From Coriobacteriia bacterium (GTDB lineage Bacteria; Actinomycetota; Coriobacteriia; Anaerosomatales; Anaerosomataceae): DNA of 64,000 bases. The notes below the pieces were generated by a model. It was not told the DNA's origin. It saw only the letters and a program-made list of their open reading frames with translations, and ran no database searches. Shown piece after piece: positions 6,518 through 58,140 of this stretch. Numbering within the stretch: position 1 is the first letter of the stretch; the number at the start of each line of letters is the position of its first letter. The position numbers were made by a program, and so were the translations under genes. The stretch is from NCBI GenBank assembly GCA_030652115.1, contig JAUSBK010000001.1, positions 58,254 through 122,253 on the forward strand, in the 5' to 3' direction.

Positions 6518-7831
6518 ATGTCACTGTCGAAGGGAATCAGGCGATATCGCGGCTGGATAGCCGCAGGGATGCTCGTCGTCGTGGCGGGCACGGCGTACGT
6601 GCTCATGCGCGGCGGCAGTGAGGCGGAGAGCACCATCAGCTACCAGACGGAGGCTGCCTCCGTGGGCACGATCTCCTCCACCGTCTCCGGAACCGGGACG
6701 CTCGCGGTCGGCACCACGACGGACGTCTACCCGGAGACCGGCGGCACGGTCGCCTCGCTTGCGGTCGCCGAGGGCTCGGTCGTCGCAACGGGCGACGTGT
6801 TGTTCACCATCGACCCCGCCGATGCCGAGGCGGCCTCCGCCCAGGCGCTCGTGGGCCTGCGCCAGGCGCAGCAAAGCGTCACGCAGGCCGGGCTGCAGCT
6901 CACCAAAGCGAAGTCCACGCTGAGCACGCTCTACGCGAGGAGCGCCGAGCCCACCCCCACCGTCACCTCGGCCGACATCGCGGCAGCCGAAGGCGACGTC
7001 GCAGTCGCAAAGGCGCAGGTGGCCTCCGCCAACGCGCAGGTCGCCGCAGCCGACGATTCGTATGACGAGGCCGTCGCTGCCGAGGACGACCTCACGGTCA
7101 CCGCGCCGTGCAGCGGCCAGGTGTACACGCTCTCCGTCGAAGTGGGCGATAGCGTGTCGACAAGCAGTGGCAGCACGGGTTCCGCCACCACGTCGGGCGC
7201 GACGAGCACGATGGGGGCGACCACCACGAGCGCGAGCTCCTCGACCGCGCCTGTCGTGATGGCGCCCGAGCAGCCACTCATGGTGCACCTCACGGTGAAC
7301 GAGGTGGACCTCCCCACGCTCGAAATCGGGCAGCGCGCCGACATCGGGTTCGACGCCTTCACCGACATCACCGCGACAGGCAAGATCTACGAGATCGCCG
7401 ACGAGGGCACGAACTCCTCAGGCGTTGTCACGTTCGACGTGTACGTGTCCATCGACAAGGCCGATCCGCGCCTGCGCCCCGGCATGTCGGCCTCGGCCAC
7501 TATCGTGACCGACGTCGCGCAGAGCGTGCTCGTCGTCTCCAACTCGGCCGTGCAGTCCGACGGCGACGGCGGCTACTACGTGCTCCTGATGTCCGACGGC
7601 GCAGCCGAGTCCTCGCAGGTGACGGTCGAAACCGGTCTGGCGAGCGACACCCAGACCGAGATCCTCTCGGGCATCGCCGAGGGCGACATGGTCGTCACCC
7701 AGACGATCGACAGCAGCGATGAGTCCGACATCGAGGACAACGACAGCGGCTCGGGACTCCTCAACTTCGGCGGCGGAGGCGGCATGGGCGGCGGCACACC
7801 TCCCAGCGGCGGCCCGATGGGCGGCCAGTGA
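6518..7831 (+). CDS. periplasmic adaptor subunit of MacAB-type efflux system
   Basis: A 437-residue HlyD/MacA-family membrane-fusion protein. One N-terminal membrane anchor (residues about 14-30, AAGMLVVVAGTAYVLMRG) is followed by a lipoyl-like half-motif (GGTVASLAVAEGSVVATGD), a helical hairpin rich in Ala/Gln, the second lipoyl half (CSGQVYTLSVEVGDSV), then beta-barrel and membrane-proximal domains. Between the lipoyl half and the barrel is a low-complexity Ser/Thr/Gly insert of about 35 residues. The C-terminus is a Gly/Pro/Met-rich tail. It is translationally coupled to the ATPase gene (TGATG overlap). It joins an ABC exporter; in a monoderm cell it would act on the outer face. Substrate unknown. 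Confidence 0.88.
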   Translation: MSLSKGIRRYRGWIAAGMLVVVAGTAYVLMRGGSEAESTISYQTEAASVGTISSTVSGTGTLAVGTTTDVYPETGGTVASLAVAEGSVVATGDVLFTIDPADAEAASAQALVGLRQAQQSVTQAGLQLTKAKSTLSTLYARSAEPTPTVTSADIAAAEGDVAVAKAQVASANAQVAAADDSYDEAVAAEDDLTVTAPCSGQVYTLSVEVGDSVSTSSGSTGSATTSGATSTMGATTTSASSSTAPVVMAPEQPLMVHLTVNEVDLPTLEIGQRADIGFDAFTDITATGKIYEIADEGTNSSGVVTFDVYVSIDKADPRLRPGMSASATIVTDVAQSVLVVSNSAVQSDGDGGYYVLLMSDGAAESSQVTVETGLASDTQTEILSGIAEGDMVVTQTIDSSDESDIEDNDSGSGLLNFGGGGGMGGGTPPSGGPMGGQ

Positions 7832-55934: not shown

Positions 55935-56342
55935 CTACCGCTGCGCAGCAGGATCGAAGTCGAGTGCGATCGAGTTCATGCAGTAGCGGAGACCCGTCGG
56001 CTGCGGGCCGTCCGTGAAGACGTGGCCGAGATGTGATCCGCAGGCACGGCACCGGATCTCGGTGCGCGTCATGCCGTGGCTGGAGTCGACACGCTCCTCC
56101 ACCGCATCGGGCGACACGGGCTCGAAGAAGCTCGGCCAACCACACCCGGAATGGAACTTGGTCTCGGAGCGGAAGAGGGGGTTTCCGCAGGCCCGGCAGC
56201 GATAGGCGCCCGGGTCCTCGGCATCGACATATGCGCCCGTGAACGGCGCTTCGGTGCCCGCCTCTCTGAGCACCCGGTACTCCTCGGGACTGAGAAGCGA
56301 CCGCCAGCCATCCTCATCGCGTTCGATCGCATACTGCTTCAT
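55935..56342 (-). CDS. msrB: peptide methionine (R)-S-oxide reductase
   Basis: A 135-residue MsrB, which reduces the R form of methionine sulfoxide. Zinc cysteines are in YRCRACG and [15 protein letters not shown]; catalytic Cys is in [21 protein letters not shown] holds the other conserved stretch. Thus the active site is Cys, not Sec. TAGGAG precedes the ATG. It starts 10 nt after the end of the selenoprotein MsrA gene, so both reductases are made together. Confidence 0.95.
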
Positions 56343-56352
56343 CTCGATGCTC

Positions 56353-56799
56353 CTACTGTGCTATTGCGCACGCCCGCCCGAGCATGCCGTTCTTCTCATA
56401 GTAGTGCTGGTGGTACTCCTCGGCGAGGTAGAAGCGCTCGAGCGGCACGATGTCGGTGTACACGCGGCCTACCGACTGTTCGACCGCGCGCTTGGATGCC
56501 TCGGCGGCTTCGCGCTCGCCCTCATCTGTGTAGAAGATGACCGACGCGTACTGGCGTGACCCCGCCGGTCGCGTGGGCCGATGGCTCGCCCAGAACTCGG
56601 CGAGAAGCCCGTCGTAGGTGATGACCTCCGGGTCGTAGTCGACCTGCACCGTCTCCGAATGGTCGCCCATCGAACGGTACGTGGGGTCGGGCGTGCTGCC
56701 GCCCGCGTAGCCGACTCGCGTGGCGGTCACCCCGGGAAGCTGCCCGAACCGGGCATCCGGATCCCAGAATCAACCGAGTGCCAACGTGATGGTGGCCAT
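56353..56799 (-). CDS. msrA: selenoprotein peptide methionine (S)-S-oxide reductase (UGA = Sec10)
   Basis: A 148-residue MsrA with an in-frame TGA at 56772-56770 (codon 10). The N-terminus reads [21 protein letters not shown], matching the MsrA catalytic GCFW with Sec in place of the nucleophilic Cys. The frame continues [29 protein letters not shown] and [13 protein letters not shown], all standard MsrA. AAGGAG is 5 nt before ATG 56799. A hairpin with a GUU loop follows the TGA. Ordinary gene calling starts at the later ATG 56730 and loses the active site. It reduces S-methionine sulfoxide. Sec is inferred; the SelB machinery is outside the window. Confidence 0.92.
56732..56767 (-). promoter_or_regulatory. 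bacterial SECIS-like hairpin after the MsrA UGA
   Basis: On the minus strand, 3 nt after the UGA, CUGGGA pairs with UCCCGG as the lower stem. TGCCCG (56755-56750) pairs with CGGGCA (56746-56741) as the upper stem, closing an apical GUU loop (56749-56747). The loop is about 20 nt downstream of the UGA, within the distance known for bacterial SECIS elements, and contains the G-U pair that SelB reads in known examples. It lies inside the coding region. Confidence 0.75.
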
Positions 56800-56850
56800 T
56801 ATGGCTCCTTCCCTTGCACCCAGGCCAAGCAAGCAACGCGCCGACTCTCG

Positions 56851-58071
56851 TCAGGTGCGCTCGAGCTCGTCGGCGAGCATCTCCAGGAACAGGCCGACGT
56901 CGGTCACGATACCGATCGTCTGGAAGCTGCCCCGGTCGGCGAGCTTCGTAACCACCGCGGGGTTGATGTCCACGCAGACGGTGGTCACCTCGGCGGGCAG
57001 CAGGTTCCCTGTCGCGATAGAGTGCAGCATCGTCGAAAGCATGATGCACGCGCCTGCCTGCTGACAGTACGTGCGCATCGTACGCTGTGACTCAAGTACG
57101 TCCGTGATCACGTCGGGTAGCGGACCGTCGTCACGGATCGAGCCGGCGAGGACGTACGGCGTGCCGGTCGTCACCAGCATGTGCATCAGGCCTTCGGTCA
57201 GCACGCCCTGCTCAACCGCCTGGCGGATGCCGCCACAGGCGCGGATCCGGTTGATCGCCCGCAGGTGGTGCTCATGGCCGCCCACGGTGGGCACGCCGGC
57301 TTCCATGGAGACGCCGAGCGAGGTGCCGTAGAGCGCGCTTTCGATGTCGTGTACGGCAACGGCGTTGCCGCCGAAGAGCACCGAGACGTACCCCATGCGC
57401 ACGAGGCGCGCAAGGTGCTCGGCCGCCCCCGTGTGAACGACTGCCGGCCCCACCACCAGGATGATGCTCTGACCGCGTCCTTTGACCCGGCGAAGCATGT
57501 GGGCGACATCGCGAATGACGAGTGCCTTGGGCTTCTCGGCTGAGACCTCCGAGTTCATGAACTCGAACTCCTGCTTGTCGCGCGGCCGCTCGATCGGTCG
57601 CACGCGGACACCGGCGTAGCCGACCACGATCGCCTCGTCGGCACGCACGTCGGCCATCGCTACGGTGTGCGCCGTCTCGCCTTCGATGACGATGCCGAGG
57701 TCCATCTCCGGACCGGCTACGGGCACCCACCGTCCGCCCATCCGCACCGCGGTCTCGAGATTGGTGGTCGCGTAGAACCCCTCGGGGAAGACGCCGTTGG
57801 CTGGTGCGGGCGTCGTGCGAACGTCGGCGACGTCGAGCGGCTCAGCGCCGAGCTGCCCGATCACGCCGAGGATCTTGTCGGTGTGCGCTTCGTCGCGTCC
57901 GCGGATGCGGAGCACCGCCACGGAGGCGTCCTGGTTGGTGCGGCCCACCTCGAAGGTAAGCGTCTCGAACTCACCGTCGAGCGCGACGATGTCGTCCATG
58001 ATCTGGGACATGATCCCCGAGTCGATGAGGTGACCGGTGATGCGTACGTCCTCGTACGGGCGGTGGGGCAT
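56851..58071 (-). CDS. TIGR00300 family protein (LOR/SDH-type, archaeal-like ornithine cyclodeaminase)
   Basis: A 406-residue protein. The N-terminal LOR/SDH domain (VRITGHLIDSGIMSQIMDDIVALDGEFETLTFEVGRTN) spans about residues 1-100. The C-terminal Rossmann-type part has VGYAGVRVRPIERP, IILVVGPAVVHTGAAEHLARLV, GVLTEGLMHMLV and CVDINPAVVTKLADRGS. This is the TIGR00300 family; some relatives convert ornithine to proline with ammonia release, using NAD. The reaction here is inferred from family only. ATG 58071 has GGAGG 7 nt upstream. No arginine gene is adjacent. Confidence 0.88.
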   Translation of the reverse strand: MPHRPYEDVRITGHLIDSGIMSQIMDDIVALDGEFETLTFEVGRTNQDASVAVLRIRGRDEAHTDKILGVIGQLGAEPLDVADVRTTPAPANGVFPEGFYATTNLETAVRMGGRWVPVAGPEMDLGIVIEGETAHTVAMADVRADEAIVVGYAGVRVRPIERPRDKQEFEFMNSEVSAEKPKALVIRDVAHMLRRVKGRGQSIILVVGPAVVHTGAAEHLARLVRMGYVSVLFGGNAVAVHDIESALYGTSLGVSMEAGVPTVGGHEHHLRAINRIRACGGIRQAVEQGVLTEGLMHMLVTTGTPYVLAGSIRDDGPLPDVITDVLESQRTMRTYCQQAGACIMLSTMLHSIATGNLLPAEVTTVCVDINPAVVTKLADRGSFQTIGIVTDVGLFLEMLADELERT

Positions 58072-58140
58072 GGTACTTCCTCCGGCGTCGGTATGCGGCC
58101 ACGACCGATTATCATGCATGCGCGCCCGCCGCGCACGCAC

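Follow-up and report, generated by a model that had tools for sequence, protein, structure and literature searches.

A predicted selenocysteine-containing MsrA without the helical domain in a Coriobacteriia genome

The msrA locus and its in-frame UGA

We analysed a 64,000-nucleotide stretch of contig JAUSBK010000001.1 from a Coriobacteriia bacterium (hereafter the window; the genome is G000), whose minus strand carries a gene for the peptide-methionine (S)-S-oxide reductase MsrA (56353-56799) with an in-frame UGA. An earlier note on this DNA had described the gene as a selenoprotein that gene callers truncate, and its description of the frame agrees with ours throughout: a Shine-Dalgarno-like AAGGAG (56805-56810, minus strand) was read directly 5 nt ahead of the ATG at 56799, nine codons (MATITLALG) precede the TGA at 56772-56770, and the MsrA frame then remains open to the TAG at 56355-56353. 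With the UGA counted as a residue, here selenocysteine at position 10 (Sec10), the protein comprises 148 residues and scores 140 bits against PF01625 (cut-off 23.7) and 125.4 bits against TIGR00401 (cut-off 108.1). The UGA sits exactly at the nucleophilic Cys, as had been claimed, giving the motif GUFW at residues 9-12, and H47 and E49 of the HxE motif are invariant. Together with the comparative evidence described below, these features lead us to assign a probability of roughly 0.93 to the reading that the window encodes a genuine selenoprotein MsrA. The expected truncation was also reproduced: under translation table 11 without recoding, what is left is a GTG-started open reading frame (ORF) of 125 aa (56353-56730, minus strand) from which the nucleophile, the first strand and the first helix of MsrA are missing.

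A family profile search over 69 genomes of the window's order identified MsrA genes with one in-frame TGA in 43 genomes, and in every one of these genes the TGA lies exactly at the GUFW nucleophile; the Cys version was found in one genome (G040, locus L044). Seven further UGA loci, in sequences titled Bacillota, Planctomycetota, Deltaproteobacteria and Rokuibacteriota, encode a tail resembling that of Clostridium oremlandii MsrA (CoMsrA). Selenocysteine (Sec)-containing MsrA is documented in this way across an order in which calling UGA as a stop would truncate the protein. No second MsrA was found in the window's own genome, where this gene is the sole PF01625 match.

Directly downstream, after 10 nt, lies msrB (55935-56342, minus strand; PF01641, 180 bits). 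Its product is the Cys form, with the Cys intact at RYCMNS, consistent with the earlier note. msrB adjoins the UGA-containing msrA in nearly all relatives, and the two genes are probably co-transcribed.

A SECIS-like hairpin after the UGA

In bacteria, SelB with Sec-tRNA-Sec reads a UGA that stands ahead of a selenocysteine insertion sequence (SECIS). A SECIS-like hairpin, UGCCCG-GUU-CGGGCA, is located at 56741-56755 on the minus strand. Published constraints on bacterial SECIS (bSECIS) elements specify a loop of 3-9 nt, an upper stem of 4-16 bp, a UGA-to-loop distance of 16-37 nt, a G within the first two loop positions and an energy of at most -7.5 (PMC13188914). The window hairpin lies within all of these limits, with a 3-nt GUU loop that begins with G, a 6-bp stem, a spacing of 20 nt from the UGA to the loop and an energy of -8.6 kcal/mol; it differs from bSECIS elements in that its loop is a trinucleotide, its stem is short and variable, and no Rfam family matches it.

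All 50 UGA genes have GUU as the loop, and the two Cys genes, L044 and L162, have CUU; the loop-closing pair of the UGA genes is G-C in 42, A-U in 5 and A.C in 3, a pattern of covariation. The stretch coding for the hairpin (DARFG) is nearly fixed at the DNA level. Within it, Arg is encoded by CGG in 39 of 41 cases, against 175 of 774 in the remainder of these genes (p 7e-22), Gly by GGG in 37 of 40 against 137 of 662 (p 8e-21), and Ala by GCC in 41 of 42 against 344 of 924 (p 3e-16), p-values that overstate independence because the sequences are related by descent. Four of the six pairs in the upper stem show double changes that preserve pairing. In L049 and L065, which use the Arg codon AGG, the register of the hairpin is displaced but a stem of six pairs is retained (GACGCC-AGGUUC-GGCGUC). 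The proposal of a SECIS-like upper hairpin with a GUU loop is well supported by these patterns. The lower stem that had been proposed together with it, CUGGGA/UCCCGG (56767-56762 with 56737-56732; span 56732-56767, minus strand), can be drawn, but it starts 2 nt, not 3 nt, after the UGA and is not conserved: 65.9% of its cells are paired, compared with 87.7% in the upper helix, and two of its pairs form in just 8 of 23 sequences.

Two results speak against the hairpin as a SECIS element. An Rfam scan of the segment returned no SECIS family match, and only 21 of the 43 Sec genes cleared a strict screen, in which the published constraints were computed as one unbroken stem with a hairpin energy of at most -7.5. 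Most of the failing genes have a five-pair stem at -7.0, so that energy is the one miss, and a few contain a mismatch; the same screen was passed by 6 of 102 Cys-type genes. In a single-sequence fold of 63 nt, stability was not above that of shuffled sequences (z = -0.94), and the evidence for the SECIS is therefore comparative, not energetic.

Natural controls for the SECIS are provided by the two Cys copies, which have lost the GUU loop and one of which comes from a genome lacking selA. L044 lies in a genome rated 99% complete with no selA match, and its Cys-MsrA is nested among the UGA forms in the MsrA tree; it is likely a Sec-to-Cys reversion that followed loss of the Sec system. According to published work, bacteria seldom undergo such substitutions, which chiefly concern FdhA and SelD (PMC13188914), and this case is therefore worth recording. 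L162, from the Natrialbaceae archaeon Tc-Br11_E2g1, is a haloarchaeal CoMsrA-type MsrA with Cys that also falls among the UGA forms of the order; it probably arose by transfer of a Sec form, followed by conversion.

Family placement, domain loss and the tail Cys

Sec-MsrA is already an established family, represented by CoMsrA; a recent review gives its motif as GUFWG/H and does not mention Coriobacteria, and our literature search for selenoproteins of Coriobacteriia or OPB41 yielded no relevant result. What is new here is a variant that lacks the helical domain and carries FW[D/E] and a tail Cys. The closest solved relative of the window protein is CoMsrA (E 2e-70; PDB 4lwj, 4lwk, 4lwl, 4lwm, 4u66, 4w8c; PMC4333827, PMC4479559), which shares the UGA-encoded Sec at the GUFW nucleophile and a shortened loop ahead of QY, and is the best match in both sequence and fold. 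The fold model of the window protein (mean predicted local distance difference test score, pLDDT, 93.6) matches CoMsrA 4lwj best (Z 24.4) and also the 2-Cys MsrA of Mycobacterium tuberculosis (1nwa, Z 23.0); residues 143-148, including Cys144, fall below 50 in this score.

A tree of 82 catalytic domains, in which inner forks are uncertain owing to the few columns available, splits into two sides (100/100), with all canonical MsrA proteins on one and the CoMsrA type together with the UGA forms of the order on the other. The window protein belongs to a clade of eight short forms from eight genomes (100/100) that branches among the long forms. These long forms (34 genomes, with one more cut by a contig end) have the UGA, the hairpin and usually msrB in common with the window, but measure about 185-215 aa and, like CoMsrA, possess a C-terminal helical domain (STAAARxNGYxxG), which is missing from the eight short forms; the window protein stops at residue 148, 17 residues past the YHQ motif. 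The short forms read GUFWD or GUFWE, GUFWD being that of the window protein, where the others have FWG, FWT or FWL, with FWG and FWT in the long forms. Seven of the eight short forms also contain a tail Cys at +133 to +135 from the Sec, near the position of that in canonical MsrA (YHQ...YC), whereas no Cys is conserved at this position in the long forms. In the window protein this is Cys144 (codon 56368-56370, minus strand), a candidate resolving Cys; by possessing it besides the nucleophile, the protein departs from the CoMsrA type, which has no other Cys. It resembles canonical 2-Cys MsrA in its catalytic fold and its short C-terminal tail with one Cys, and differs from it in having Sec in place of the Cys nucleophile and in lying on a separate branch.

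Sec-MsrA enzymes attack methionine-S-sulfoxide, and with Sec in place of Cys CoMsrA works 20-fold faster (PMC4333827). In the mechanism that we propose, SelB carrying Sec-tRNA-Sec would bind the mRNA hairpin at 56755-56741, and ribosomes would decode the UGA at 56772-56770 as Sec. The Sec10 selenolate would then attack methionine-S-sulfoxide, as in CoMsrA, and the oxidised Sec10 would form a selenenylsulfide with Cys144, which a thioredoxin-like reductant would then reduce; CoMsrA relies on glutaredoxin instead. The loss of the domain and the location of Cys144 in a flexible tail near the canonical resolving position make such a Sec10-Cys144 cycle most likely, and on the basis of the sequences we slightly favour the role of Cys144 in resolving oxidised Sec10; the thioredoxin-like nature of the reductant is one of our inferences. 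The broader scenario, in which the lineage shed the helical domain, acquired a tail Cys as well as an acidic residue behind GUFW, and so changed from a 1-Sec, glutaredoxin-dependent enzyme into a Sec/Cys enzyme dependent on thioredoxin, stands at about even odds.

The main competitor to the Sec10-Cys144 cycle is an enzyme that works like CoMsrA, which is of the 1-Cys type and reduced by glutaredoxin (PMC4479559): Cys144 would be uninvolved, and the selenol would be recycled by glutaredoxin or through dimer formation. The nearest kin of the window protein are such 1-Cys enzymes, and one short form, L066, has no C-terminal Cys, a point that also counts against the cycle proposed above. The presence of the tail Cys in the other seven short forms, near its canonical place, and the lack of a conserved one there in the long forms argue the other way, and we consider the CoMsrA-like route the less probable of the two, although a serious contender. 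A further difficulty concerns activity itself. Removal of the helical domain from CoMsrA collapses the active site and leaves the enzyme inactive (PMC4333827), so that activity of the short forms may not be taken as self-evident. The short forms constitute a natural version of this inactivating deletion, with FW[D/E] and the tail Cys as candidate compensating changes.

Selenocysteine machinery and competing readings of the UGA

The earlier note had called for a search for the sel genes, and this succeeded in part. Profile searches detected selD in the window's genome (375 bits), while selA, selB and selC are absent from the assembly, at a place that adjoins a contig end. The selD gene itself contains an in-frame UGA at SKAGUAAK (L140:7174-7176, contig C3), and the ORF finder starts downstream of it, at an ATG at 7222. 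Elsewhere, G001 and G002, two genomes of the same genus, possess selA, as do 69 of 99 relatives, and tRNA-Sec was found in the selA regions of six relatives. G002 carries a contiguous order of an EAL gene, selD, a yedF-like gene, selA, selB, tRNA-Sec, UPF0014 and a prenyl synthase gene. Decoding of UGA as Sec, as the earlier note had proposed, is thus supported by conservation, the hairpin, selD and the contiguous cluster in G002; for the window strain itself, we infer it from the conservation of UGA and hairpin, the machinery in congeners and the selD found here.

Several findings weigh against this reading, among them part of the absence of sel genes that the earlier note had named as refuting it. 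In an assembly rated 98% complete, selA gave no match, profile matches to selB were all below the cut-off and were rejected as selB, and a covariance search found no tRNA-Sec, its best matches being rejected as selC since they were identified as tRNA-Ser, tRNA-Leu and others. Among the 43 UGA genomes, 10 likewise have no selA match, mostly fragmented assemblies. These absences favour an alternative in which the strain lost selA, selB and selC, leaving the UGA as an ordinary stop codon and msrA as a recent pseudogene or the source of no more than a useless fragment, and an island of genes indeed begins in G000 at the spot where G002 has selA. On contig C3, the G002 order is kept through yedF. 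A small gene comes next, then one with a PIN domain and finally a large opposite-strand gene, inside which the contig ends, 3.4 kb past yedF; the G001 counterpart of this large gene falls within the yedF-selA interval. One G001 contig carries selD, then the same island and, beyond it, an intact selA-selB-tRNA-Sec. The end sequence of C3 aligns to the small contig C12 with 80% identity over 2.4 kb, both reaching contig ends. An 8.2-kb block from selA to the prenyl synthase has no counterpart in the G000 assembly, and PF00348 (prenyl synthase), of which G001, G002, G011 and G012 have exactly one copy each, on the contig carrying their sel cluster, is not found in G000. Because the contig ends inside the island and the missing block takes with it the sole prenyl synthase gene, the missing selA, selB and selC are most likely due to an assembly gap rather than loss, an argument that is strong but indirect. 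There is no sign of decay in the msrA frame, the hairpin or the ribosome-binding site, and selD is retained with its own UGA, leaving gene loss improbable.

It is highly improbable that the UGA specifies an amino acid other than Sec (Trp, Cys or Gly) or is bypassed by an internal restart, with no selenium involved: a 125-aa GTG ORF does follow the UGA, but it is the piece without nucleophile, first strand and first helix described above, the gene upstream of msrA (56851-58140) and other window ORFs read as genes end in TGA, and neither the conserved hairpin nor the alternation of UGA and Cys would be explained. That an ordinary Cys-MsrA was misread in sequencing or hit by a nonsense mutation, which in a single genome would look alike after one change from TGC or TGT to TGA, is excluded by the recurrence of this UGA in 43 of the order's genomes and at seven loci of other phyla, and is also at odds with the constraint on synonymous sites downstream and the altered loop in both Cys copies.

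Two side observations concern the genus. G001, with selA and tRNA-Sec present, encodes canonical Cys-MsrA and no UGA-MsrA (L014, L119). The island (L140:8679-11950, L135, L119:12360-19817) consists of a PIN-domain gene and large repeated genes that appear polymorphic-toxin-like by eye; it splits the sel cluster between yedF and selA in two genus members and apparently breaks the assembly.
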